A stretch of DNA of 41,273 nucleotides from an uncultured Prevotellaceae bacterium (GTDB taxonomy: Bacteria > Bacteroidota > Bacteroidia > Bacteroidales > Bacteroidaceae): NCBI GenBank assembly GCA_900315095.1, contig OMXS01000021.1:1-41273 (forward strand), in the 5' to 3' direction. Numbering within the stretch: position 1 is the stretch's first letter; every line of letters starts with the position of its first letter. This document shows positions 14,358 to 27,722 of this stretch, one piece after another. A model generated the notes under the pieces. It searched no databases. It had not been told where the DNA came from and was given only the letters and a program-made list of their open reading frames with translations. Position numbers and translations under genes: made by a program.

Positions 14358-15167
14358 CTACATATCTTTTGGGAGGCGTTTCACCACCTTATCAAACCTC
14401 TCGCTGACATCAACCATCCAGTCAGGAAGTTTTTTCAGTGCCTGATAGATGAGAGCATCGGGCATTTCCTTATAATAGGCGTATGCCATAGGACCGGCAA
14501 TAGCAGCAAGCGTGTCGGCATCGCCACCAAGAGAAATGGCGAGTTTTATGCAGTCAACATAGTCCTTCGATTCCAAGAAACATATCATCGCAGGACCTAC
14601 GGTTCCAGCACATGTCGAATAAAACGAATATTCATCATGGAACTCATCGTATTTCTTGTTCGCCCATTCTGGATAATACTCATTCAGCACATTCTCACGA
14701 ACGAAGTCTTTGTCCTTGCCGTTCTTCAGATGGAATATAGCAAGTGCCGTTGCCACCGCTCCCTTAATACTCTCAGGGTGGTTGTGCGTTGGCATTGCCG
14801 TTTCAGTAGCCATTCTCACGCATTCCTCTTCTGTCTTCGCCAACCATCCTGCCGAAGAGCAACGCATGGCAGAGCCGTTGCCAAGACTGCGGTACGGCTG
14901 TGGTTTATGACTTGCCATCCACTCTTTAAACCTTTTGCTAAACCCTGCATGGCGATGCTCGTTAGCACATTTCCATAGGTTCATTGTCATGTCCAGACCA
15001 TCGATAAAAGCCTCAGCACAAGCAAATGTCAGCACAGTATCATCCGTAAAATGAGCATCTGCACCAAACAACTTCACCTTGTCATAATCCTTTATGCGTT
15101 TCGTTTTTCCTTCGTAAACACTCCCCGCAATATCTCCAATAGCCTCACTAATCAGATAATTTTTCAT
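14358..15167 (-). CDS. ADP-ribosylglycohydrolase family protein
   Basis: The 269-residue enzyme should remove ADP-ribose from modified proteins or related substrates using two magnesium ions. Family motifs are present in order: GDIAGSVYEG near residue 11, FTDDTVLTFA (TDDT at 41-44) and the C-terminal SLGGDADTLAAIAGPMAYAYY. The length is typical of the DraG/ARH family. It lies between a BspA-like lipoprotein gene (15-base spacing) and the HNH gene (12 bases), probably in one transcript. No ADP-ribosyltransferase partner was recognised nearby, so its substrate is open. A role in reversing toxin-made ADP-ribosylation is possible but unproven. Confidence 0.9.
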   Translation of the reverse strand: MKNYLISEAIGDIAGSVYEGKTKRIKDYDKVKLFGADAHFTDDTVLTFACAEAFIDGLDMTMNLWKCANEHRHAGFSKRFKEWMASHKPQPYRSLGNGSAMRCSSAGWLAKTEEECVRMATETAMPTHNHPESIKGAVATALAIFHLKNGKDKDFVRENVLNEYYPEWANKKYDEFHDEYSFYSTCAGTVGPAMICFLESKDYVDCIKLAISLGGDADTLAAIAGPMAYAYYKEMPDALIYQALKKLPDWMVDVSERFDKVVKRLPKDM

Positions 15168-15845: not shown

Positions 15846-16916
15846 TCAAAATGGTATTTCTTCTTCAAGATCAAAAGCCTTGATTAACTTTTTCACAGTT
15901 TCATTATCTGAATTCAAATCCTTCAGACTGATTGGTTTTAAAGTACTTTTACTATTCTTCCGTACGCAAACCACATCGGGTTTTATGATGTCAAAATTTT
16001 CATCATTAGTACTTTTACGTTTCTTCCGTACGCAAACTACACCCGTTTTATCATTATAGTTCAGGAAAATGCTGTTCAAAGGCTTTAAGGCATTCTTTTT
16101 CACAATGATTTCTATCCGCCCACACAGGTCTCGTCCTTTTTCATCTTGATAGAAGTGATAATACTCGGGGCGATGCACCATCAAAATAACATCAGCAAGG
16201 CCTTCGATAAAACTGGAGTTCATTAAATCCATCAACTGAGGCCGCTTGCCTTCAAACCCTTCCCGGTATTCTATTCCTCTACTCAACATAGATCCTACTA
16301 TAATAGGCACTTTGTTTAGATGAGCAAATTGCTTTAACGAAAGCATCACCTTTGCTACTCTATCAGAAGGATTATCGCCTTCATTGGCAAAATCTATCAT
16401 TTGCAGACAATCTATGAAGATGATATGTACATCCCTTTCTCTGATACAATTCCGTGCAGTTTCAGTTAATTCGTTAAGTGGCAAATCCAAACTGTCATGC
16501 ATAAAAAGCGGTGCATCAAGCAAATCACATAATCGCTTATCCAGCCTTTTCCACTCTTGGATTTCCAAATTGCCTTGAAACAAGTGCATAACTGGTATGT
16601 CACAGTACATGGCCAAAAGTCTTTGTACATAGTCAGACTTCAGGTGATTCGTAGAGAAAGCCAAGACGGGCAATTTGCTTTCTAAAATGATGTTTATCAT
16701 CATTGACAGCATGAATTCTTCCTTTCCCATGCAAGGTCTTCCACCAACCACATATACTTTTCCTTTCTCGAAGCCACCTATCAAATTGTCTAAAGGCTGA
16801 AAACCCGTGGAGATTTCCAGTACACCTGTTTTTGCAGCCCTTACCTTTACATCAGATATGCAATCACTCAACATCTCCCGCATGTCGATATAGCCGTCGT
16901 TCATCATCTCATTCAT
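15846..16916 (-). CDS. DnaB-like helicase C-terminal domain protein, altered Walker A
   Basis: The 356-residue product is the RecA-like half of DnaB without its N-terminal domain. Recognisable parts are TGFQPLDNLIGGFEKGKVYV, the P-loop region GGRPCMGKEEF (58-68), IIFIDCLQMI near 170 as Walker B, and ADVILMVHRPEYY near 250. Replicative DnaB has GKT or GKS where this protein has GKE, so the key Thr/Ser is missing and ATP hydrolysis may be impaired. In the C-terminal tail the segment VVCVRK(K/N)xKST occurs twice, 22 residues apart. The gene is in the leftward run with DUF4407 and unknown genes. Such paralogs occur in Bacteroidetes genomes; the role is not known. Confidence 0.75.
   Translation of the reverse strand: MNEMMNDGYIDMREMLSDCISDVKVRAAKTGVLEISTGFQPLDNLIGGFEKGKVYVVGGRPCMGKEEFMLSMMINIILESKLPVLAFSTNHLKSDYVQRLLAMYCDIPVMHLFQGNLEIQEWKRLDKRLCDLLDAPLFMHDSLDLPLNELTETARNCIRERDVHIIFIDCLQMIDFANEGDNPSDRVAKVMLSLKQFAHLNKVPIIVGSMLSRGIEYREGFEGKRPQLMDLMNSSFIEGLADVILMVHRPEYYHFYQDEKGRDLCGRIEIIVKKNALKPLNSIFLNYNDKTGVVCVRKKRKSTNDENFDIIKPDVVCVRKNSKSTLKPISLKDLNSDNETVKKLIKAFDLEEEIPF
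15942..16056. repeat. 66-bp-period duplication inside the DnaB-like gene
   Basis: AGTACTTTTAC followed by TCTTCCGTACGCAAAC occurs at 15942 and again at 16008 with only a few changes. The period is 66 bases, exactly 22 codons, so the reading frame is kept. The similarity extends over about 40 bases of each copy. Confidence 0.75.
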
Positions 16917-16985: not shown

Positions 16986-17579
16986 TTACCTCCAAGCAAT
17001 TCCGCTCCGCAAGCCTTGCGGATTAGGCAATATACACTCCCAGAGAACATTGGCTCGTACCAGATCTATTTTTTTCGGTTCGCCACGTTTTCCAGATATT
17101 GAGTAGTACCTCGCAATACTTTTAGGTAAAATGTCAGAAAACGCTTTTCTAATTCGTGCACACTTCTCATTAACGGAGTTCAATGTTGGATTTGTAACAT
17201 CATCAATACTTTGTTGAACTCTATTGGTCATTCCGTTAGGTCGCAATAGCAGATATAGTGATGTCAACTCTTTCCGATAGTCAGGAAGACATTTCAACAC
17301 GATTCCTTCGGGATGGGAGAGGAACAACAAATATACCGCTTTTACCAAGGGCTCCATTTTCACTTCCGAATTTACGCCATCAGCCAATATTATTTTGTAG
17401 TCCTCCGTCACCACCAACTGCGGGAAGAACTCCTCTTCGTCCATCACTGCTACAATATCAGCATCATCCACGCCATAAGCCTTTAACTTACGAACTTTCT
17501 CCTTTATTTCATCCAAAAGAATGGAGCAATGGAACTGCTCCAATTCTTTTGAAATCAATTGTTTTACATGGTTCTCCAT
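16986..17579 (-). CDS. hypothetical protein, 197 residues
   Basis: This protein is not assigned. The first 45 residues are helical. The region around 70-115 has VKAVYLLFLSHPEGIVLKCL and YRKELTSLYLLLRP, followed by IDDVTNPTLNSVNEKCARIR and a basic C-terminal part with ISGKRGEPKKI. It has no signal peptide or membrane segment. It begins 11 bases after the small acidic gene, and the next gene of the run, DnaB-like, starts 69 bases further on. I recall similar HPEGI-containing proteins in Bacteroidales gene neighbourhoods, but no function. The end (LRSGIAWR) looks slightly odd and might be altered. Confidence 0.65.
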   Translation of the reverse strand: MENHVKQLISKELEQFHCSILLDEIKEKVRKLKAYGVDDADIVAVMDEEEFFPQLVVTEDYKIILADGVNSEVKMEPLVKAVYLLFLSHPEGIVLKCLPDYRKELTSLYLLLRPNGMTNRVQQSIDDVTNPTLNSVNEKCARIRKAFSDILPKSIARYYSISGKRGEPKKIDLVRANVLWECILPNPQGLRSGIAWR

Positions 17580-17590
17580 ATCTGTGCCAT

Positions 17591-17794
17591 TTAGAATCCC
17601 ATTGCGTCCATCATTGCATCGTACATCCCAGGATCGGCTGGCATATCACCATACATGCCATCTGTCAGAGCATCCCAAGAGTCTTCTTCAGTCCACTCGA
17701 AGTCTTCTTCATCATAGTTATCACATTCGTAACCATCATACTCTTCGTAAGAGTCACACTCTTCGTAAGATTTAAAATCAAAATCTCTTTCCAT
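17591..17794 (-). CDS. very acidic small protein, 67 residues
   Basis: The product is dominated by Asp, Glu and Tyr, with repeated YEE and YE motifs (for example SYEECDSYEEYDGYECDNYD), and ends in a Met-rich tail. It has no catalytic signature. It lies 29 bases after the DUF4407 gene and 11 bases before the next gene in the run. Its low complexity could suit a disordered or DNA-mimic-like role, but that is speculation. The start at 17794 and the tight spacing support it as a real gene. Confidence 0.6.
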   Translation of the reverse strand: MERDFDFKSYEECDSYEEYDGYECDNYDEEDFEWTEEDSWDALTDGMYGDMPADPGMYDAMMDAMGF

Positions 17795-17823
17795 AGTTTC
17801 TGCTGTTTAAATTATTAATACTA

Positions 17824-18804
17824 TTATTTCACTAAAATACATTTTGACGTCTGTTCCATCAGTTTTTTCTTCAGATTAAGTTGATTTTCAACTATTAACT
17901 CATAATCACATTTATTCTCACCAATCTTGATAGTAAGCACAAACAATTCAAGGAAGGTTAATAAACAGAACAAGATGATGTAGAAAGCCAGCGACACTTT
18001 GCTTTGTGATACAACCTTTAATGTCGCTTCTAATTCTTCAATAAAACCAGGAGCACGCAGATTTATTTCTTCTCTTACCTTCTCCGCTACTTTCTTTTTG
18101 TCCTGCCTAAGGTTATCTAACTGAGTGGAGTATATTTGTATTTGATCATTATTTGCTTTCAACTGTTCTGCCAATGGATTGGCTATCGTTACCGTATTTA
18201 CGATTTGGGTTCTTACTTTCCGAGGTTTCCCGTTGTTATCCACTCCCACGACCTGTTCTTGAGTAGAGACATTTGTATCCTTAATCACAGGTCTTTTCTG
18301 TAATTCTTCATTCAAGGTAATAGTCGCCATGCTTAAAGAATCCATCTCCCGAGTAATCCTTTGGATGTCACTATCGTATATTGACAACCGCTTTGTTATG
18401 GTCATACTTATTACATCTTCTCTGTGTTCCTGAATGGCTAACTGAATGTCATTGCGGAATATAATCTGATCAAAAATACAGGAACCTAGGACAGACATAC
18501 ATAATGCAAGCATCACCCTCATAATACTCATCAAGCTGGCTTTTCCTACCGTCAAGATAATCACCCTTTCTACACAGAGAACAATGAACATAAAAGCCAC
18601 CGCAACACCAATTTTAAAAATATAAGACTCAATATTAACATATCTGTCAGCGAAACAGTATCCAATCGTTCCCCATAATACCATCATTATACATATAGCA
18701 GACAAAAATATACGATACTGCCTATGACTTGCCTCGCCACATTCTTTCAAGATGTTCTTATCCCAACCTATGAGTAAACATCCAATATCCTTCATTCTTT
18801 TCAT
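17824..18804 (-). CDS. DUF4407 membrane protein
   Basis: The 326-residue protein fits DUF4407, a family of bacterial membrane proteins of unknown function. It has a short cytosolic start, paired hydrophobic segments near 30-55 and 60-85, a third near 90-115 and a last one near 270-295. Between the third and fourth lies a long charged helical region (SMTITKRLSIYDSDIQRITR onward) that probably forms a coiled coil on one side of the membrane. It belongs to the leftward run, 16 bases after the previous gene. DUF4407 genes often sit in accessory regions. The neighbours give no clear function, though a membrane-anchored assembly is plausible. Confidence 0.8.
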   Translation of the reverse strand: MKRMKDIGCLLIGWDKNILKECGEASHRQYRIFLSAICIMMVLWGTIGYCFADRYVNIESYIFKIGVAVAFMFIVLCVERVIILTVGKASLMSIMRVMLALCMSVLGSCIFDQIIFRNDIQLAIQEHREDVISMTITKRLSIYDSDIQRITREMDSLSMATITLNEELQKRPVIKDTNVSTQEQVVGVDNNGKPRKVRTQIVNTVTIANPLAEQLKANNDQIQIYSTQLDNLRQDKKKVAEKVREEINLRAPGFIEELEATLKVVSQSKVSLAFYIILFCLLTFLELFVLTIKIGENKCDYELIVENQLNLKKKLMEQTSKCILVK

Positions 18805-18820
18805 ATTATCACCTCCTTAT

Positions 18821-19384
18821 CTATTTGTTATTGATAAAATTAACGGTATTTGCTGCTATTCCTTTGAGGAATCCTCTACGATATGATTCTATCATCGTTG
18901 TCATTTTCGGATCGTTCTCTTTAAGTTGTTGCTGCATTTCTTGTATTTCAGATAGATGCTCTTCGTACGTTTCCCTAAGTGCCATCATATTAGATGCAGA
19001 CGTAAGCGCAAGCGCCTTTTGAGCATTATCAATCTTGACATCTATAATTCTTATATCATTCTTATATTTGAGAATGATGCGTTTGAACAACATCTCTAGG
19101 TCATTGCGAATAATCCTCTCTTTCGCATCCCTATAGGCAATATCACAATTTACCAGAGCATCCTGGAATCCCTCTTCTTCAAAATTCTTATGTATGAAAT
19201 TGAAGATTACATCTATAGGCATCCCCGTCCCCCAAGTGATGGTAATAATACCCTCTTCAACTTTCTTCCCGTCATTTGTGGAGTTCTCCTCTTCTTTATC
19301 TTTTTCAAGAGTGTTCTCTGATACAGCGGGAATCATCTCTACTATATCTGCTGGCTTTGAGCCAAATAACTTTAATAATGCCAT
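18821..19384 (-). CDS. hypothetical cytosolic protein with long helices
   Basis: The 187-residue protein is not assigned. After a charged linker (KDKEEENSTNDGKKVEEG) comes a compact part with IITITWGTGMPIDVIFNFIH, and then long helices with ALRETYEEHLSEIQEMQQQL that may form a coiled coil. It has no signal or membrane segment. It begins 19 bases after the preceding gene and ends 16 bases before the DUF4407 gene, so the three are probably translated from one transcript. It could contact the DUF4407 coiled coil, but this is inference. Confidence 0.65.
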   Translation of the reverse strand: MALLKLFGSKPADIVEMIPAVSENTLEKDKEEENSTNDGKKVEEGIITITWGTGMPIDVIFNFIHKNFEEEGFQDALVNCDIAYRDAKERIIRNDLEMLFKRIILKYKNDIRIIDVKIDNAQKALALTSASNMMALRETYEEHLSEIQEMQQQLKENDPKMTTMIESYRRGFLKGIAANTVNFINNK

Positions 19385-19403
19385 AATTGTATAATTTTAG
19401 ATT

Positions 19404-19943
19404 TTAACTTCTTAATTCTTCGTTTGACAGGATTACATCCTCGATGGTACCTGTTCTATAGTTTCTATAACGAAATATCATATTTCTGTTAGTTGCTATG
19501 ATACTTTGCACCTTGATACCTTTCTTGTCAATCTGGTCAAGGATATTACCCTTCACAATATTCATGTCAATTTCGCCATATCTATGCCATCTGTCGTTGA
19601 TCTCATAGTTGCAAATGAAGGAGTCTTTTGTAATTTCCGAACTAGTCCAAGTCGTTATTTCATCTACTTTGACGGGACATTCATAAGTCTGATACTTTGC
19701 CAATAAAATCAGATACTCTTCGTTATCAATGCTTTCCCCCGAGTGAATCTTTCTCCATTCTTCTTCGGTGAAATAGTCCTCCGGATTTTTGGCTTCGGTG
19801 AAATTGTTGAAGAACACCATTGAGATTATCAATGCCACCACGAATACGATTGAACACAAAAAAGGTGAAATGATACACATAATTATTAGAAGGTACCAAA
19901 GTTTACCGAACACTCTCACGATGTGCAATTTAAGATTTTCCAT
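19404..19943 (-). CDS. hypothetical membrane protein, 179 residues
   Basis: The first 50 residues hold two closely spaced hydrophobic segments (LWYLLIIMCIISPFLCSIVF and the following VALIISMVFF), so the protein is membrane-bound. The rest is a soluble domain with EDYFTEEEWRKIHSGESIDN and many aromatic residues, not recognised. It is the first gene of the leftward run and starts 118 bases from the caspase gene, back to back with it. No clear leftward promoter was identified in that short gap. Function unknown. Confidence 0.65.
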   Translation of the reverse strand: MENLKLHIVRVFGKLWYLLIIMCIISPFLCSIVFVVALIISMVFFNNFTEAKNPEDYFTEEEWRKIHSGESIDNEEYLILLAKYQTYECPVKVDEITTWTSSEITKDSFICNYEINDRWHRYGEIDMNIVKGNILDQIDKKGIKVQSIIATNRNMIFRYRNYRTGTIEDVILSNEELRS

Positions 19944-19979: not shown

Positions 19980-20044
19980 TTTGCCTCTTTATACTCAAAA
20001 AAAAGAAAAGGTAACCGTGAATTCGAAAAAAAATAGTATTTTTG
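19980..20044 (+). promoter_or_regulatory. caspase operon promoter with conserved upstream element
   Basis: TATTTTTG at 20037-20044 is the -7 box. Further upstream, 19980-20017 matches the region before the CHAT gene (25987-26024, opposite strand) with few changes and one indel. The strongest block is AAGAAAAGGTAAC, ending at 20015, 21 bases before the -7 box; the CHAT copy ends 20 bases before its own -7. There is no TTTG at the normal -33 place, so this element may replace it. The start codon is 17 bases past the -7 box. Confidence 0.65.
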
Positions 20045-20061: not shown

Positions 20062-20931
20062 ATGAGATTCAGAATTGTCTTTATTATGATAACCATTCTG
20101 CTCCATTCCACAGTGCTGGCACAACGGAAACGGGCTTTCATGGTTGGAATCTCACATTATGACACAGCACTTACGGGATACCAATGGAATAATATTAATG
20201 GTGTCGAGGATGTCAATCTACTCTGTAGTGTATTAAAGAAACAAGGCTTCATTACAACAGCATTATTAGACGAACATGCATCCTATAATAATATTGTTCG
20301 TCAAATCGAACAATTTACAAGCAGAACCAAGAAAGGAGATATAGTCTATCTTCACTTCTCAACTCACGGGCAACCAGTAGAAGACATAAATGGTGACGAA
20401 GATGACGGTTGGGACGAATCCATAGTGCCAATTGATGCATATAAGTTATACAAGAAAGGTGTTTATGAGGGTAAGCACCATCTTATAGATGATCATCTGA
20501 ACAGCATGGTCAAGAAATTACGCCAAAGGATTGGACCTTCAGGCTTTCTCTATGTGATTATCGATGCTTGTCATGCAGGAACTGCTTCAAGGGCAAACGA
20601 CGATACCGTCAGAGGAACTTACGTTGGCTTCACATACAGCAATAAGGTTTTCAAACCTTCCACAAACAAAAAATCACATTACAGAATTGAGGCATCTCCT
20701 AAATTATCCAACGTGATGTTTATTGAAGCCTGTCGCCCAGACCAAGTTAATAAAGAAATCAAAGTTGGCGGAAAACGGTATGGACCACTTTCGTATAATA
20801 TCGCACAGACATTGTCAAATTATATTCTCAAAACCAATGCCAAGGGTTTTATTGAAAACTTAAAACATACTATAGTTAAAACAGGACGATGGCCCAACAA
20901 CCAGAATCTTGTAACGGAAACAAGTTACTGA
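20062..20931 (+). CDS. secreted caspase-family (C14) protease
   Basis: The 289-residue product begins with a signal peptide (RIVFIMITILLHSTVLAQ), so the protease domain should be exported. The caspase fold is seen from residue 25: KRAFMVGISHYD, then VEDVNLLCSVLKKQGF, the catalytic His in FSTHGQ (His 102) and the catalytic Cys in IDACHAG (Cys 170). A long acidic stretch (DINGDEDDGWDESIVPID) follows the His, as in other bacterial caspase homologs. A TTG at 20056 is possible, but the ATG at 20062 gives the better signal peptide. The gene is followed after one base by a sigma factor gene. Its substrate is unknown; cleavage of a regulator or of an envelope protein is a natural guess. Confidence 0.85.
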   Translation: MRFRIVFIMITILLHSTVLAQRKRAFMVGISHYDTALTGYQWNNINGVEDVNLLCSVLKKQGFITTALLDEHASYNNIVRQIEQFTSRTKKGDIVYLHFSTHGQPVEDINGDEDDGWDESIVPIDAYKLYKKGVYEGKHHLIDDHLNSMVKKLRQRIGPSGFLYVIIDACHAGTASRANDDTVRGTYVGFTYSNKVFKPSTNKKSHYRIEASPKLSNVMFIEACRPDQVNKEIKVGGKRYGPLSYNIAQTLSNYILKTNAKGFIENLKHTIVKTGRWPNNQNLVTETSY

Positions 20932-20932
20932 A

Positions 20933-21517
20933 ATGGCAGAAGAGATAAAACTGCAAAATATCGAACTGAACCGCTTTATTACTGACGAAAGAAATAAAGT
21001 GGTGAATTATCTGAGGAAAAAATATTCCATCTCAGATGATGACATAAGCGATATTTATCAAGAGTCATCCGTTGCTCTGTTCATGAATATACGCGATGGA
21101 AAACTGACAAACCTTACAAGTACTCTTTCCACTTATTTTCTTCGCATCTGCATCAACCAGACATTGAAAATTATGGGAAAGCAAAAGAAAGTGGTGCCTT
21201 TGTTCGATGAAAGCAGACTCACTAATAAAGATACTTTCCGGCCTGACAAAATTGACGAACTATACCAACTCTGCACCGAGAATGAAGAGGCTGAAAAGGT
21301 TTCGCGTTCTGAAAAAGTAGTACAGAATATCATCGAGTCTATGCCCGACACCTGTAAAAACGTTTTCCAAGGTTATTATTGGGACAATCTCACGACATCA
21401 ACCATTGCGGATATGTTTGGCTTTGCCAATGCCAACTCTGTCAAGACACAGAAGTATAAGTGCCTACAGAAATTTCGCACCAAGTATAACGAACTAATGA
21501 ATAAATTCTATGGATAA
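20933..21517 (+). CDS. ECF-type RNA polymerase sigma factor
   Basis: This 194-residue protein has the two-domain layout of an extracytoplasmic-function sigma factor. Region 2 spans VNYLRKKYSISDDDISDIYQ to YFLRICINQTLKIMG, and region 4 spans VVQNIIESMPDTCKNVFQGY to IADMFGFANANSVKTQKYKC with a helix-turn-helix. An acidic linker joins them. It starts one base after the caspase stop and ends inside the next gene (ATGGATAA overlap), a typical sigma/anti-sigma coupling. It should direct RNA polymerase to a small set of promoters, perhaps those with the shared element upstream of the caspase and CHAT genes. That link is an inference. Confidence 0.85.
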   Translation: MAEEIKLQNIELNRFITDERNKVVNYLRKKYSISDDDISDIYQESSVALFMNIRDGKLTNLTSTLSTYFLRICINQTLKIMGKQKKVVPLFDESRLTNKDTFRPDKIDELYQLCTENEEAEKVSRSEKVVQNIIESMPDTCKNVFQGYYWDNLTTSTIADMFGFANANSVKTQKYKCLQKFRTKYNELMNKFYG

Positions 21518-22178
21518 GAATGACGATATATTGATGGATGGCATCGATGAGCGAATAGAAGCATTCCTTCGTGGTGAGATGAGTGCAGATGAAGAGACGG
21601 CTTTCAAACAGGAGATTCGTCAGAATCCTGAATTGCGAAACCGTGCTATGGCTATGACCTCGCTCATCAAAGGTCTGCACGACCAGAATTCCTCCAAAGA
21701 AGCCAATATCATCAAAGAGAATACGGCAAAATCTAAAGTACGTCCTCTCCTCTGGTGGGCTTGCTCCGTTGCTGCAGTGTTCGCTATTTTCTTCGGAATC
21801 TACAAAGACCAGCGCTACCGTATGCTCGATGCGGCGGTCTCTCCATATTATACGGAATATGATATGAGCGATATTTCTCGTGGTGACGTAGATTCAGCCA
21901 CGATAGCGCATCTATATGACCTTTTCATTCAGATAAAAGGCAATAGGAACGTATCAAACATCATCAAAGAACTGGAACCCATTTACAAATCCCTTGATGA
22001 AAACTTCACTTACAACGCTTACGCCAATGACATCGCTTGGAACCTCGCTTTGGCATACGTAAAAGATGACCAAATAGATAAGGCCATCACCATTCTTCAA
22101 AAACTTAAAGCGGATAACCCAGATACACCTATTTATAATAAGGCAGACGAATTGATAAAGAAACTGCAAGATTTATAG
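21510..22178 (+). CDS. transmembrane anti-sigma-like protein with TPR region
   Basis: The 222-residue product has a cytosolic N-terminus (IDERIEAFLRGEMSADEETA, then FKQEIRQNPELRNRA) like those of single-pass anti-sigma proteins in this phylum. One membrane helix follows (LLWWACSVAAVFAIFFGIY, about residues 88-106). The periplasmic part contains two or three tetratricopeptide-like helices, with AYANDIAWNLALAYVKDDQI and KAITILQKLKADNPDTPIYN near the end. The gene overlaps the sigma gene by 8 bases. This fits a membrane-bound inhibitor that releases the sigma factor on an envelope signal. A classic zinc-finger anti-sigma motif is absent, so the role is inferred from layout. Confidence 0.7.
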   Translation: MDKNDDILMDGIDERIEAFLRGEMSADEETAFKQEIRQNPELRNRAMAMTSLIKGLHDQNSSKEANIIKENTAKSKVRPLLWWACSVAAVFAIFFGIYKDQRYRMLDAAVSPYYTEYDMSDISRGDVDSATIAHLYDLFIQIKGNRNVSNIIKELEPIYKSLDENFTYNAYANDIAWNLALAYVKDDQIDKAITILQKLKADNPDTPIYNKADELIKKLQDL

Positions 22179-22187
22179 AGTATCGAG

Positions 22188-22221
22188 AGGACAATCACAA
22201 GGTTGTCCTTTTTCTTTTTCG
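22188..22221 (+). terminator. rho-independent terminator after the sigma operon
   Basis: AGGACAA at 22188-22194 pairs with TTGTCCT at 22203-22209 across an eight-base loop, followed by a T-rich run. It lies 10 bases past the anti-sigma-like stop codon, and the reading frames after it form a separate group. Confidence 0.7.
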
Positions 22222-22273
22222 ATTACCTTGTTCCTGCATGATGTATCAAAGGTAAAAATAGATACGATACAGC

Positions 22274-22429
22274 ATGGAAGAATATATTGAGTCGATAGAG
22301 AAGTTCCTAAGGGGACAGATGAGCCAGGAAGAAGAGAACGTGTTCAAGAAATCACTAATGATAGGTGTTCATATGCGAACATGTGCTTTTATGATTGCGT
22401 TTCTTGTGAAGACACAAAAAACCGGGTAA
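22274..22429 (+). CDS. 51-residue anti-sigma-like mini-protein or fragment
   Basis: This small frame encodes EYIESIEKFLRGQMSQEEEN, clearly similar to the ERIEAFLRGEMSADEETA region of the anti-sigma-like protein upstream (shared IExFLRGxMSxxEE pattern). It ends after 51 residues, without the membrane helix and TPR part. It could be an intact short regulator that binds the same sigma factor, or the remnant of a second anti-sigma gene. A terminator lies between it and the sigma operon, so it would need its own promoter, which I could not identify. Confidence 0.6.
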   Translation: MEEYIESIEKFLRGQMSQEEENVFKKSLMIGVHMRTCAFMIAFLVKTQKTG

Positions 22430-22491
22430 ATATTTGGCGATTCCAACAATTATTACTACCTTCGCATCATGGACGAAACACGTTCATCTTC

Positions 22492-22557
22492 TGGAGAGCC
22501 ATAGAGCCATGAAGTTTTTATTAACTAAACTCCAGGAGCCATGGAGCCACGGAGCCA
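22492..22557. repeat. GAGCCAT direct repeat pair
   Basis: GAGAGCCATAGAGCCATGAAG and GGAGCCATGGAGCCACGGAGCC flank about 25 bases of AT-rich sequence. The module is built from GAGCCA units and has some inverted character. No function can be assigned. Confidence 0.55.
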
Positions 22558-22571
22558 AAACGAATTTGATT

Positions 22572-22703
22572 ATGAAAATAAATCTTATTCTAAAGGTAAA
22601 CGTGGAGTGGCATAACAAAGACAACTGTAATACAGGTGTTTTACAACTGATTGCAGCATTGTTGACCATCGTAGCATCATTGTTTACGATTTTCTGCCAC
22701 TAA
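22572..22703 (+). CDS. small membrane peptide, 43 residues
   Basis: The frame runs from ATG 22572 to the stop at 22703. The first half is polar (INLILKVNVEWHNKDNC), the second a single hydrophobic helix (GVLQLIAALLTIVASLFTIF). A longer frame from 22434 is in phase but crosses repeat sequence, so 22572 is the better start. I recall similar short peptides in Bacteroidales but cannot name a family. It lies just before the hairpin that separates it from the CHAT gene. Confidence 0.5.
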   Translation: MKINLILKVNVEWHNKDNCNTGVLQLIAALLTIVASLFTIFCH

Positions 22704-22713
22704 TTGCAATTGC

Positions 22714-22738
22714 GAGAGCGTGTCACAGACACGCTCTC
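22714..22738. terminator. perfect stem-loop between converging genes
   Basis: GAGAGCGTGTC, loop ACA, then GACACGCTCTC form an 11-bp perfect stem between the ends of the small membrane peptide gene and the CHAT gene. No long T run follows on either side, so it may be a bidirectional terminator or just an mRNA 3' hairpin. Confidence 0.6.
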
Positions 22739-22740
22739 TA

Positions 22741-25700
22741 TTAGTTTAAACCATCCAGCATAATAAACGATGCCCAATACTTAGGATCATCATACTTCCC
22801 ATTATCAAACTTGCGTAGATATTGTTGGGCGTCTTGTAATGATTGATGCTTAGTCTTGCCGTTCATCAAGTTCCTATAGAACTCAACCATCAGTATCCTT
22901 GTTGCCTCATCATCGACTTTGTCCAAACTCATAACGATTGTATTAGCACCAGCTTTTTTGAAACCACGTTGAAGGCCATAGACTCCTTCTGAGTCAATTC
23001 TGCCAAGTGCTGTTTCACATGCCGAAAGAACGACCAAATCCAAATTAGTAAAGTCAAGGTGAGAAATCTCTAAAGCCGTCAGTATCCCATCTTCGTTATC
23101 CACGGATATACTATCTCTATGAATTAAAGCATTTCCACCAGACATAACTAGGAATGAATGTGACAACGATATCTCTTCTTCATCAAAAAATTGTGCCTCG
23201 TCCAATATGATAAAACGGTAATTGTTGGCGTCCCTTATACTGTCATTGTTATCAGGAATATACATCCCGTGGGTCGAAAGGTGCAGTATTCCCATGTAGT
23301 TGCCGGACAATTCCTTTATAGATTCCTCTGTTCCTGCAGATCCAGATAAGACCACACATTCTATCTTATGCTTAGACAATGTTGATTTAATAAGTTCGAC
23401 TTCTTGCATAGATCCCATCAACAAATCAAATCCCCCTCTTTGTGTTAAAGACTCTATTGCTGAACGTGACAACCTATAGGGAATGGCTTCTTTATACTTA
23501 GGTTGCTCAACTTTATCATTATAATCCAATCCGCCATATAAGTATGCATTGTCAACAGTCATGGCGTTGCATCTCATACACAGTTCTCTGGTGGATGAAA
23601 GTCTATACAAATTAAATCTGTCATATATATATTTATTTCCAGCAATTGGCAGATATTCTATCCCAATAGTATTGAGCAAACCTGTTGTTGAAAAATAGAT
23701 GTTTCTGGTACCTACTAAAGCATCTTGTAACTTTTTATCCCCCCATAATAACATGGATAATCCTTTATAGTCTATACTATCAGTTATTAATGATTTCAAT
23801 TGGTTTTCACTGCATAGGCGAATTAACTGTGGAGATTTAGAATCACTATCTATGACGTATGCATCATAATAAATATCTTGACCATCAAGACCACGATATG
23901 ATAGTATTTCAATGGCGACATCCCCTTTCTTTAGTTGTTTTTTTATTTCCTTCCACGAATAATCTGTTCCTTTATATTGGCGACTAAAACGTGTTACCTT
24001 TTGAGACAGCAGAAACTCTTCACCTTTTATTATAGATTCCAAAGAGTCTACAGTTTGACTTCTTGAATTTTCAGAATACAATTTCTCTAGTTTGGCTAGA
24101 TTGATAGTGTATTCTCTATATAGTTCGTTCAATTCATTGTCATTACATGTCTGAATAACTCTTTTGAATTCCCTTTCCGAAGATAACAACATACCTTTAT
24201 AGAAGAGTGCTGCATCATAAGCCAATGAATTGCCAAAATCAGTATTTAGTATTCCGCTTATTGTTGGTATAAACCATGTAAACAAGCCACTATAACGATG
24301 CCAATAGTTTTTTTGTTCTTTTCTTGACATGTTAAATGCTGAATTGTTTATGTGCCTTTTAACAATTTCAGATACTTGGCTAATATAAAGTAATAAACTG
24401 TCCAGGTCTTTTTTCTCATAAAGTGATGGAATCCACAGCATCTCTACTTTTTTTATCAACATATTTGCATAACCGATAGAACTTTCGCCCACCCTTTCTT
24501 TATACACATTTATGGCCTTGTCTAAATACAGAATTGCGATATCTGGATCACTCCACATGTAAATCTCAAATAATTTGTTCAATACTCGAATATATTGCAT
24601 TATACTATAACTGTTTCCAGAAGATATAGAATCCTCTATCTCTTTTAAAACGAATTCATATTCCTGTAAAGCCCTTAATGTATCTTGCTTGTTATATAAA
24701 TAAGTTGCAGCAAGTACAAGTCTAGAATTCTGAAAAATTAGATCATGGCTATAATCTCCCCTATTTCCAGCCGAAACAGCCATTTCTAAAAATCTAATCC
24801 CCTCATCAATTTCACCTTGGTCTATTAATGCTATTCCAAGATTGTTGTATATTCCATATTTCAACCATGAATAATCGTCACATCTACCTTTGTTACTTAG
24901 TTCCAATGCTAGCCTGCCTGTATTAACAGCCTCTTCTGTCTTCCCCATACTATTATAAAGCTCAATCAAATTACCAAGGTGTGCTATATAAGCACATTCA
25001 TACTTAATTTGATTCTCATTATACTTCTTTTCGTATATATCTACAAGTTCTTTACCGTACAGGAGGGCTTTCGGGTAATTGTCTTCATAATAACTTCTTT
25101 CTGCCAGTTCCCTTAGATATTCTTCATATGTGTATACACCTACCCCTTCTTTAAGACGACGAGTTGCTAACGACAATTCCATATATTCTTCGGCAATATC
25201 TGGTTGCTTCATCAAACTATATGCTGTTCCAACATTCCCATAGGCTCTTGCAAGAACATCCAAGTATATACTATCTTGAGGTAATTCACGCAAAATATCA
25301 ATTGCTTTAAGACCACACTCAATTTCTTTATCATATTCATTAAGTTTGTAGAGAACCATCATCATATTATACAAAGAACATGCACTTGCAAATGAGCGTA
25401 TGCCTTCAACGTAGTCAGTGGCTTCAAGTTGATTCTGTGTATATTTTAATGCCGATGCCCAATCCTCTTCTTTTTCCTTCTTTTGATAAGCATCAAAATT
25501 GTAATGAATATCATCTGTGGTATATGTAGAATCGTAAGAACAGGTTAAATCAATCCCATATATATTAAATGCACTTTCATCTTCATTTTCAATAATATTA
25601 ATTCTATTTGCATAAACACACGGAAAATATAGCTTAACATCTATATCTCCTGCTTTATTAAAATGTCTCTTATCTGGGCTGAAAGGTATTCCCGTTACCT

Positions 25701-25944
25701 TAATTATAGGATATTTGGTTCCATCATTGACGTTTTCTATATATGTTTTATCTGAAATATTGGCCCAACTTCCTGCATCTGCAGAATATGAACAATAAAC
25801 ATAGGTTGTGTCATTTTTAGTTTCTATTTTTTGTACTCGGAATTCGTAAACATCAGTCCTGTCGAAAACAGGATTTTCGACAACTTGTGCATTGATGTAT
25901 CCTATGAATAAATGCAATATACAAAATAAAACTAATCTTCTCAT
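22741..25944 (-). CDS. secreted TPR-CHAT domain protease
   Basis: The 1067-residue protein opens with a signal peptide (RRLVLFCILHLFIGYINAQ), then about 120 residues of beta-rich sequence. An array of tetratricopeptide repeats runs from roughly residue 150 to 480, with YGNVGTAYSLMKQPDIAEEY and YGIYNNLGIALIDQGEIDEG as clear units. A helical linker leads to the C-terminal CHAT domain (about 690-1067), a caspase-like peptidase. Its catalytic His lies in HLSTHGMY (near 891) and its Cys in VVLSACETALG (near 974). The end has the usual RGFKKAGANTIVMSL and ASFIMLDG features. It converges on the caspase-sigma operon and shares that operon's upstream element. Substrate unknown. Confidence 0.88.
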   Translation of the reverse strand: MRRLVLFCILHLFIGYINAQVVENPVFDRTDVYEFRVQKIETKNDTTYVYCSYSADAGSWANISDKTYIENVNDGTKYPIIKVTGIPFSPDKRHFNKAGDIDVKLYFPCVYANRINIIENEDESAFNIYGIDLTCSYDSTYTTDDIHYNFDAYQKKEKEEDWASALKYTQNQLEATDYVEGIRSFASACSLYNMMMVLYKLNEYDKEIECGLKAIDILRELPQDSIYLDVLARAYGNVGTAYSLMKQPDIAEEYMELSLATRRLKEGVGVYTYEEYLRELAERSYYEDNYPKALLYGKELVDIYEKKYNENQIKYECAYIAHLGNLIELYNSMGKTEEAVNTGRLALELSNKGRCDDYSWLKYGIYNNLGIALIDQGEIDEGIRFLEMAVSAGNRGDYSHDLIFQNSRLVLAATYLYNKQDTLRALQEYEFVLKEIEDSISSGNSYSIMQYIRVLNKLFEIYMWSDPDIAILYLDKAINVYKERVGESSIGYANMLIKKVEMLWIPSLYEKKDLDSLLLYISQVSEIVKRHINNSAFNMSRKEQKNYWHRYSGLFTWFIPTISGILNTDFGNSLAYDAALFYKGMLLSSEREFKRVIQTCNDNELNELYREYTINLAKLEKLYSENSRSQTVDSLESIIKGEEFLLSQKVTRFSRQYKGTDYSWKEIKKQLKKGDVAIEILSYRGLDGQDIYYDAYVIDSDSKSPQLIRLCSENQLKSLITDSIDYKGLSMLLWGDKKLQDALVGTRNIYFSTTGLLNTIGIEYLPIAGNKYIYDRFNLYRLSSTRELCMRCNAMTVDNAYLYGGLDYNDKVEQPKYKEAIPYRLSRSAIESLTQRGGFDLLMGSMQEVELIKSTLSKHKIECVVLSGSAGTEESIKELSGNYMGILHLSTHGMYIPDNNDSIRDANNYRFIILDEAQFFDEEEISLSHSFLVMSGGNALIHRDSISVDNEDGILTALEISHLDFTNLDLVVLSACETALGRIDSEGVYGLQRGFKKAGANTIVMSLDKVDDEATRILMVEFYRNLMNGKTKHQSLQDAQQYLRKFDNGKYDDPKYWASFIMLDGLN

Positions 25945-25960
25945 AATAGATATTTTTCTA

Positions 25961-26024
25961 CAAAATTACAAATTTCCTTCAAAAGTCAGTTACCTTTTCT
26001 TACTTTTTGGTATAAAAAGACAAA
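25961..26024 (-). promoter_or_regulatory. CHAT gene promoter with conserved upstream element
   Basis: On the minus strand the -7 box TAATTTTG is at 25961-25968. The element at 25987-26024 matches that upstream of the caspase operon, with AAGAAAAGGTAAC ending 20 bases before the -7 box. The start codon is 16 bases past the -7, nearly the same geometry as at the caspase gene (17). Confidence 0.65.
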
Positions 26025-26138: not shown

Positions 26139-26633
26139 ATGAAAAAAATTATGATGACACTGATGGCAGTCGTATTCGCCATCGCAGCAAACGCTCAGTA
26201 CAACACCAACTACTACAACCAGTATGGTGGCAGTATCGGTTCCTCTACCACCCACTCTAACTATGGCGGCGGTTACACTACCAACTATTACGACCAGTAT
26301 GGAGGTAGCACAGGTAGCGCAACAACACGTTTCAACTATGGTGGCGGAACAACCACGAACTACTATGACCAGTATGGGGGCAGTACCGGTAGTGCCACGA
26401 CACAATCTAACTATGGTGGTGGCTACACCACTCATTATTACGACCAGTATGGTGGCAATACTGGCAGCGCCACAACTAGTTCCAACTACGGTGGCGGAAC
26501 AACCACAAACTACTATGACCAGTACGGAGGCCGCATTGGTTCTTCAACAACCCGCTCCAATTATGGAGGCGGTTATACCACAACCTACTACGACCAGTAC
26601 GGCAACAGCCTCGGGGCAAGTTACGACTGGTGA
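26139..26633 (+). CDS. secreted protein with five 25-residue YYDQYGG repeats
   Basis: The 164-residue product has a signal peptide (KKIMMTLMAVVFAIAANAQ) and then five exact-length 25-residue repeats plus a partial sixth. Each repeat has NYYDQYGG, then GS(A/S)TT, then NYGGG(Y/T)TT. It is poor in charge and rich in Gly, Thr and Tyr. The architecture equals that of the protein at 27189-27722, with 23 leader residues, five 25-residue repeats and a short end. The sequence and spacing suggest a beta-structured or adhesive surface protein. No known domain is recognised. It starts 195 bases from the CHAT start, divergent from it. A weak promoter-like TTGG and TAATATTA pair lies upstream. Confidence 0.8.
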   Translation: MKKIMMTLMAVVFAIAANAQYNTNYYNQYGGSIGSSTTHSNYGGGYTTNYYDQYGGSTGSATTRFNYGGGTTTNYYDQYGGSTGSATTQSNYGGGYTTHYYDQYGGNTGSATTSSNYGGGTTTNYYDQYGGRIGSSTTRSNYGGGYTTTYYDQYGNSLGASYDW

Positions 26634-27188: not shown

Positions 27189-27722
27189 ATGAAAAAAGTA
27201 ATAATGACACTCGCGGCAATACTAATTGCCATCACAGCAAACGCTCAGTACAACGTGGGAACATCCTCACTTTACACCGACAGTTATGGTAATTCTATCA
27301 GCACTCACCGTGACAGGAGCGGAATGACAACAGGAACCTCCTCATCGTACACCGACAGTTTCGGCAATACGATAACCACTCATCGCGACAGAAACGGACA
27401 GATGATAGGCACGTCAAGCACTTACACCGATAGTTTCGGGAATACTATGACAACGCATAGAGACAAGAACGGGCAAGTGACAGGTACTGCCAGTAGTCAA
27501 ACCGATAGTTTTGGCAACACCTCTACAACCTATTCTGACTATAACGGCAGGAACACAGGTTCTTCGAATACTTACACAGACAGTTTCGGAAACACGTCAA
27601 CGACTTACCGAGACAATCATGGACAAAGCATCGGGTCATCATCAAGTTACACAGACTCCTTTGGCAACACCTCAACACAACAGAACAGCAATAATCCCAA
27701 CACCAGTATATGGACATGGTGA
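27189..27722 (+). CDS. secreted protein with five 25-residue YTDSFGN repeats
   Basis: The 177-residue product has a signal peptide (KKVIMTLAAILIAITANAQ), then five 25-residue repeats and a longer partial sixth. Each repeat has G(T/S)SS, YTDSFGNT, then TT(H/Y)RD, N/SG. The Y-x-D-x-x-G-N and D-x-N-G spacing recalls YD/RHS-type repeats, though the repeats are longer and no RHS core is present. It begins 28 bases after the TPR-like gene, so the two probably share a transcript. The same architecture as the 26139 protein, but little sequence identity, suggests an old duplication or common fold. Confidence 0.8.
   Translation: MKKVIMTLAAILIAITANAQYNVGTSSLYTDSYGNSISTHRDRSGMTTGTSSSYTDSFGNTITTHRDRNGQMIGTSSTYTDSFGNTMTTHRDKNGQVTGTASSQTDSFGNTSTTYSDYNGRNTGSSNTYTDSFGNTSTTYRDNHGQSIGSSSSYTDSFGNTSTQQNSNNPNTSIWTW

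Follow-up and report, generated by a model that had tools for sequence, protein, structure and literature searches.

In Haliangium ochraceum, a type III-B CRISPR cascade reportedly combines a SAVED-CHAT protease with a prokaryotic caspase (PCaspase), and the partner genes of that locus are said to include a sigma factor and its inhibitor. The locus described here lies at positions 20062-25944 of a stretch of 41,273 nucleotides (contig OMXS01000021.1, hereafter the window) from the genome of an uncultured Prevotellaceae bacterium (3.24 Mb, 58 contigs). It holds four genes, which encode an exported caspase, an extracytoplasmic function (ECF) sigma factor, a putative membrane anti-sigma factor and an exported CHAT protease with tetratricopeptide repeats (TPRs). 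In composition its nearest counterpart is the SAVED-CHAT/PCaspase cascade, a CHAT protease and a separate prokaryotic caspase being common to both. However, the window CHAT protein has TPRs, the proteases are exported and the anti-sigma factor spans the membrane.

In the RseA and RsiW pathways a membrane anti-sigma factor is cut on its outer side and an ECF sigma factor is released. Compared with RseA/DegS and RsiW, the first protease in the window would be the CHAT protease and/or the caspase, encoded beside the sigma factor. SAVED-CHAT immunity is presented as a cascade of proteolytic activity, and SAVED-CHAT occurs in only three loci of one survey (PMC11229360). Craspase (type III-E) comprises the TPR-CHAT protein Csx29, Csx30 and CASP-sigma, and its protease cuts the inhibitor of an ECF-like sigma factor (PMC10028731, where the RseA/DegS and RsiW envelope-stress pathways are also mentioned). 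The window system shares the TPR-CHAT protein and the inhibitor of an ECF-like sigma factor, which would likewise be cut. Csx29, however, binds Cas7-11 and has target RNA as its trigger, whereas the window system has an extra caspase and an envelope location. CalpL/CalpT/CalpS follows the same logic of protease, anti-sigma factor and ECF sigma factor, but CalpL is a Lon protease with a SAVED domain, triggered by cyclic tetra-adenylate (cA4), and is unlike the window proteases (PMC11417357).

The SAVED-CHAT/caspase and Craspase cascades are the nearest in mechanism. The window set was not filed as a member of a known cascade because the proteases are exported, the anti-sigma factor is in the membrane, a SAVED domain was not found on the CHAT protein (the family scan gave CHAT and TPR), and no cas gene, Cas7-11 included, was seen among the window open reading frames (ORFs) scanned, a set that takes in neither the remaining window ORFs nor the genome outside the window. 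The gene set was not described in the paper titles and abstract openings searched, which covered few subscription journals and no bioRxiv preprints. The statement of the initial annotation that no described system has exactly this set needs the caveat of the type III-B SAVED-CHAT and caspase cascade named above.

The sigma factor, the anti-sigma factor and the TPR-CHAT protease are a conserved, co-localised core, to which this lineage adds an exported caspase of the metacaspase type. The preferred reading of this set, given a probability of about one half, is an envelope-to-transcription switch: the exported CHAT protease and/or caspase would cut the anti-sigma factor and free the sigma factor, and an element shared by the upstream regions of both protease genes (E1) would then be read.

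Core genes and their co-occurrence

The caspase gene (20062-20931, + strand; PF00656, 9.6e-20, 71.7 bits) is separated by a single base (20932) from the ECF sigma factor gene (20933-21517, +; TIGR02937 sigma70-ECF, 2.7e-13, 49.9 bits, cut-off 42.9), which overlaps the anti-sigma gene (21510-22178, +) by 8 bases (21510-21517). The TPR-CHAT gene (22741-25944, -; PF12770, 2.2e-49, 168.9 bits, plus TPRs) lies on the minus strand and faces these three. Both the tightly coupled unit of caspase, sigma factor and transmembrane anti-sigma-like protein and the secreted TPR-CHAT protease facing it had been proposed in the initial annotation, and the coordinates and family matches agree with it. The Pfam models for sigma regions 2 and 4 match the sigma factor below their cut-offs. 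In the anti-sigma protein there is a membrane stretch, TPR models match weakly (3.7e-4, below cut-off), and a curated anti-sigma model gives 14.5 bits, far under its cut-off of 100. Its description as a single-pass membrane anti-sigma factor with a TPR-like outer domain comes from an AlphaFold2 (AF2) model and alignments. The predicted layout, with helices at residues 3-72, a long (membrane) helix at 77-113, a linker at 114-128 and helices at 129-221, fits the class I (RseA/RsiW-like) arrangement of a cytoplasmic helical domain, one membrane helix and an outer domain.

Genus searches covered 151 genomes and the order-wide anti-sigma profile search covered 393, with the genus (Prevotella) and the order (Bacteroidales) taken from the names of the relatives. 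The closest named relatives are Prevotella and kin, mostly ruminant-gut metagenome assemblies, with isolates including Prevotella sp. P6B1 and MA2016. From 184 caspase relatives the best 80 were taken, and their 80 loci, near copies included, were annotated with profiles made in this analysis; some are the same records as loci filed under genome (G) handles (e.g. L036 and L017). For the conservation counts the minimum ORF length was 180 amino acids (aa) for the anti-sigma factor, 250 aa for the caspase and 165 aa for the sigma factor; the CHAT residue counts used ORFs of at least 430 aa (81 of 84 kept).

His102 and Cys170, the caspase dyad, are each present in 78/78 relatives, as is Asp168 before the cysteine, which presumably has a part in the S1 pocket. 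The PDB profile match is metacaspase-1 (7.5e-13), and the AF2 model (predicted local distance difference test 89.6) is closest to a bacterial C14 protein, metacaspases and MALT1 (top Foldseek matches: GSU0716, MCA2, MALT1, AtMC9). By its p20 fold and His/Cys dyad the protein is an orthocaspase/metacaspase (C14), for which cleavage after arginine or lysine would be expected. A family search for caspases in the window's genome missed this one and therefore yields no caspase count. The CHAT dyad is also conserved, both in close relatives (His892 79/81, Cys976 78/81) and in 21 wider relatives plus the window (22/22 for each residue). Hydrophobic, signal-peptide-like N-termini were detected in 75/78 caspases and 74/84 CHAT ORFs, and in 1/69 sigma factors and 0/70 anti-sigma factors.

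The four genes are considered to form one system because all of them are present in 45 of the 49 caspase loci that have 8 kb or more on each side, a co-occurrence in relatives that upholds the single candidate system first suggested from the window. Two of the remaining four loci (L094, L107) have caspase and CHAT only, and the other two (L071, L073) have no core gene in their ORF set. Over 63 readable loci there are four gene orders. CHAT is convergent, as it is in the window, at 33 loci; it comes last on the same strand at 18 and first at 9; the remaining 3 have the order sigma-anti-sigma-CHAT-caspase. Caspase, sigma factor and anti-sigma factor occur together in at least 13 of the 151 genus genomes, and 12 of these have CHAT on the same stretch (in G097 as matches in pieces); the thirteenth, G043, is represented by a 6.5-kb contig. 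The sigma search matches 13/151 genus genomes, with no caspase beside the sigma gene at L021, L022, L026 and L027. CHAT genes were not found in 18 of 19 other genus genomes picked (98-99% complete). The four-gene set is also present in genomes from four other families of the order (G225, G200, G348, G538). Caspase and CHAT without a visible sigma factor, as in L094 and L107, were also seen in short stretches (L204, L208, L209, L213, L214), and in G557 the sigma pair is about 18 kb away on the same contig.

Outside the caspase loci the more frequent partner of the sigma pair is CHAT. The anti-sigma profile matches 89 of 393 order genomes at 1e-7, not all of them with CHAT, and 40 places were fetched with wider flanks, mostly not those already seen with a caspase. 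At these distant sigma/anti-sigma loci CHAT is present in 21 (at most about 6.2 kb away, centre to centre) and the caspase in 1. When only fetched loci with 8 kb or more on each side are counted, CHAT was found at 14 of 21; of 20 control stretches, each of 19 kb and taken from nine of these genomes, 0 contain it (p 4e-6). Because of these counts (CHAT 21/40, caspase 1/40, controls 0/20), the common core is taken to be sigma factor, anti-sigma factor and CHAT, with the caspase as an apparent addition. CHAT, as the constant partner, could therefore make the first cut at least as plausibly as the caspase, whose role may be that of an additional stage.

Patchy presence (the trio in at least 13 of 151 genus genomes) and variable cargo beside the core are what would be expected if the genes were a chance or hitch-hiking cluster in genomic islands, without a shared pathway. 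Yet the same members recur in four gene orders, the four-gene set reaches four other families and CHAT is absent from the 20 control stretches; already contradicted by the co-occurrence counts, such a cluster is extremely improbable.

A 51-aa ORF (22274-22429, +) downstream of the anti-sigma gene resembles the anti-sigma N-terminus and has no membrane or outer domain. It could be a decoy or mini anti-sigma factor, or a remnant. Short pieces similar to it also lie downstream in G121, G116 and G059.

Arginine 124 of the anti-sigma factor

The most conserved anti-sigma column is Arg124 (109 Arg and 1 Lys among 110 sequences in the joint alignment). Its codon and that of Gly125 (21879-21884, +) mark the cleavage site proposed from conservation and the predicted linker. 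In 70 caspase-side anti-sigma factors position 124 is Arg in 69 and Lys in 1, and nine more, compared by eye, have Arg in 8 and His in 1. The residue lies 23-40 residues past the membrane stretch in relatives; in the AF2 model it falls within the lower-confidence linker 114-128, between the membrane helix and the outer domain, and its neighbours are variable. It is best read as a likely cleavage site, because only Arg or Lys is aligned at this position, the linker is flexible and outside the membrane, and a clan CD protease gene is often nearby. Separase-like proteases prefer arginine. Orthocaspases cleave after positively charged residues (PMC6426788).

Homologues that show no caspase have Arg124 as well; the residue was therefore dropped as proof of caspase cleavage and does not point to the caspase specifically. 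Two other arginines were set aside. Arg836 of CHAT is conserved in the close set (79/81), but it is present in only 8/22 of the wider set plus the window, and its presence in one of the two orphan CHAT proteins of the window's genome counts against a cascade site. The caspase pair Arg184-Gly185 (78/78) was not used as evidence, as the model places it at a strand and not in a loop.

Since Arg124 is kept where no protease gene is seen nearby (18/40 fetched loci), it could also be structural or serve another protease. Binding of a ligand or protein to the TPR-like domain might then control the anti-sigma factor, with the proteases as co-regulated effectors. Such control is unlikely: in 110 sequences the position is only ever Arg or Lys, amid variable neighbours in the predicted linker, which would be unusual for a structural residue, and the close, repeated linkage to CHAT also speaks against it.

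Element E1 and the divergent neighbours

The upstream regions of the caspase and CHAT genes share a stretch of 36 nucleotides (nt), 83% alike, at 19980-20015 (+) and 25989-26024 (-). On the protease side, a TAnnTTTG (-7-like) box follows GGTAAC after 21 nt before the caspase gene (20037-20044, +), and another lies before the CHAT gene (25961-25968, -). AAAAGGTAAC-N18-24-TAnnTTTG has 2 matches in the 3.24-Mb genome, both at the caspase and CHAT sites, and 0 backwards. The shared upstream element proposed initially is real. The form without AAAA, GGTAAC-N19-22-TAnnTTTG, is not special in the genome (3 matches versus 4 backwards).

The same regions contain E1, of the form GTTACCTTT-N12-GTATAA, pointing the other way. 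Copy 1 (19989-20015, -) overlaps the caspase upstream region and points toward 19943, and copy 2 (25989-26015, +) overlaps the CHAT upstream region and points toward 26139. In its family form E1 has 56 sites in 81 sequences, versus 14 for the reversed pattern. The distance to the divergent-side start codon is 44-55 nt at 26/56 sites and 19-205 nt at 52/56, and the distance to CHAT reaches 1422 nt (ORF starts are mechanical, and some sites lie within ORFs or far from genes). The window form (N12, GTATAA) is present in 5/5 genomes with a close sigma factor and in 0/146 others (p 1.6e-9, uncorrected for after-the-fact narrowing of the form); its 8 sites, in G000, G116, G121, G059 and G131, are all in the cassette. 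In 20 further genomes TTACCTTT-N11-13-GTATWA has 38 matches versus 7 backwards, of which 19 are in known loci (exact sequence) and the others elsewhere or unplaced. E1 was not found in 8 wider loci (L230-L237).

As the fixed -35/-10-like form faces away from caspase and CHAT, the sigma factor may raise the divergent neighbours first, and E1 would serve these as a promoter, perhaps mainly. This would give the sigma factor a private regulon, made up of the block from 19943 to 17824 and the repeat protein at 26139. In a second clade the motif is GTTTAC-, and L079 and L081 have two back-to-back E1 copies, one reading into a 467- to 469-aa gene and the other into the operon of a 192-aa gene, caspase, sigma factor and anti-sigma factor. 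L084 and L085 are similar with looser copies, and L085 does not have the 192-aa gene. In the first clade the caspase side keeps GGTAAC-N21-TAnnTTTG at 25/34 sites, and L051 and L059 have a second element copy next to the caspase, so the element region may work both ways. The idea that the element is a promoter for caspase and CHAT alone was changed after the orientation table and the second-clade loci. What remains of the initial claim that the sigma factor raises both proteases is the element common to both and, for the caspase, the second-clade motif that reads into its operon; the outward-facing fixed form points to the divergent neighbours.

These observations also bear on a model in which site-1 cleavage of the anti-sigma factor falls to the caspase itself and the sigma factor raises caspase and CHAT from the shared element. 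The tight unit of caspase, sigma and anti-sigma genes, the orthocaspase preference cited above, the 25/34 sites before the caspase gene and the second-clade E1 reading into the caspase operon all suit it. Nevertheless, homologues without a visible caspase have the same Arg, CHAT is the commoner neighbour, and in L050, L053 and L061-L063 E1 is 186-1422 nt from CHAT and 47-55 nt from a divergent gene. This model is accordingly doubtful, and a switch in which CHAT and/or the caspase may cut is preferred.

Copy 1 would first read a 179-aa membrane protein (19404-19943, -; its cluster occurs in 12 loci), which adjoins the caspase also in L017-L019. The second and third genes of the divergent block encode a 187-aa protein (18821-19384, -) and a DUF4407 membrane protein (17824-18804, -; PF14362, 2.9e-33), the latter 75-83% identical in L016-L019. 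The block as a whole (16986-19943, -; a 197-aa gene, DUF4407 and two small genes) stays with the caspase in L016-L019, although L016 has no match to the first small gene. Copy 2 would read an exported tandem-repeat protein (26139-26633, +), and another lies at 27189-27722 (+); their repeats are YYDQYGGS and SYTDSFGN. By a simple motif count, repeat-protein ORFs are found in 16/81 sequences, each at most 2.8 kb from a CHAT gene, and in the window the second ORF alone counts. In other families of the order, too, repeat proteins resembling those of the window are encoded close to the caspase gene (L237, 1875-2453; L212, 3355-3813). In L060-L063 and L065, the gene that E1 would read beside CHAT encodes a protein of 412-423 aa, and the only one of these scanned (L063:15666-16937) matches the Exonuclease VII large subunit (8e-17). 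A palindrome-like CACAAGCCTTGTG or CAACCTTGTGAAA lies upstream of CHAT in L050, L053 and L055, and AACAAGRTTGTGAAA is near both E1 copies in the window; these are a possible site of a second regulator. Farther out, the window encodes a 356-aa DnaB_C helicase domain protein (15846-16916, -), which aligns with DnaB models in their C-terminal part only; an ADP-ribosylglycohydrolase gene (14358-15167) is close by.

The proposed switch and its possible role

In the resting state the anti-sigma factor would keep the sigma factor at the membrane. A signal in the periplasm, which the TPR part of CHAT might sense, would activate CHAT and/or the caspase, and either could cut the anti-sigma factor after Arg124, outside the membrane. 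Intramembrane and cytoplasmic proteases would complete the cleavage, and the freed sigma factor would read E1 into the divergent genes beside caspase and CHAT; in the second clade it would, via E1, also drive the caspase-sigma operon itself. By analogy, CHAT would probably act first and the caspase as an amplifier. The initial proposal that envelope proteolysis frees the sigma factor suits the topology, but the caspase is not the constant partner (1/40 loci, versus 21/40 for CHAT).

Several observations weigh against this switch. Neither protease is seen at 18 of the 40 fetched loci (partly short contigs), where Arg124 is nevertheless kept. In 29 other caspase loci of the order (L201-L229, 1.5-kb flanks) sigma and anti-sigma factors are present in only 4 and CHAT in 8, and most of the longer caspase fusions among them show neither. 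The caspase-side anti-sigma factor of L203 has His in place of Arg; no sigma gene lies beside it, and a sigma/anti-sigma pair with Arg is found elsewhere in that genome (L247). Weak genus anti-sigma matches (E >1e-10: L185-L187, L189-L192, L197, L199) are outside the conservation counts, and several of them (e.g. L185, L187, L191) have, by eye, no such Arg after the membrane stretch; these may be another family. Ten of the 84 CHAT ORFs lack a signal-peptide-like start, some being cut by contig ends. As for E1, the pattern as searched (N11-13, GTATWA) matches 14/151 genus genomes, and the 5/5 association is not independent proof of reading by the sigma factor because the form was narrowed to that of the window afterwards and lies within a conserved cassette. 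When 2 mismatches are allowed, E1 does not exceed its backward control (11 versus 13). The 25/34 GGTAAC-N21-TAnnTTTG sites facing the caspase gene belong here as well.

Cargo genes offer hints of a role. Genes beside the core in relatives include AbiH, SIR2-like, Lit-like (Peptidase U49), AbiGi, DUF2971, DUF3800, DUF3990, RhuM and Bro-N; among the window ORFs scanned, no such cargo was found beside the core genes. With near copies (L068, L070, L078, L104) left out, and with ORFs of the same loci at distances above 3 kb as controls, PADLOC detected AbiH, Lit and ThsA/SIR2 each in 2/44 cargo ORFs versus 0/89 control ORFs (p 0.001, if these are six different proteins, as Pfam and clusters suggest); for all PADLOC families together the numbers are 70 versus 8. 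Among the core genes the caspase alone matches PADLOC (caspase model, 3.7e-7), while sigma factor, anti-sigma factor and CHAT have no match at 0.01. The AbiH, Lit and SIR2 cargo hints at phage defence. Because several relatives have abortive-infection-type genes next to the core, the switch would most likely respond to envelope damage or phage attack. A more specific and tentative suggestion is a CRISPR-independent envelope immune pathway, in which the proteases would sense attack at the surface and cut at Arg, and the sigma factor would turn on a two-promoter regulon and the abortive-infection cargo.

CRISPR loci are known to encode CHAT and caspase cascades with a sigma factor at their end, and here such parts form a stand-alone envelope cassette. 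For bacterial caspases and TPR-CHAT proteins this supplies a candidate promoter and a candidate substrate in which a single cleavage residue is predicted. The role of free-standing bacterial caspases and CHAT proteases can therefore now be addressed by a short experiment.

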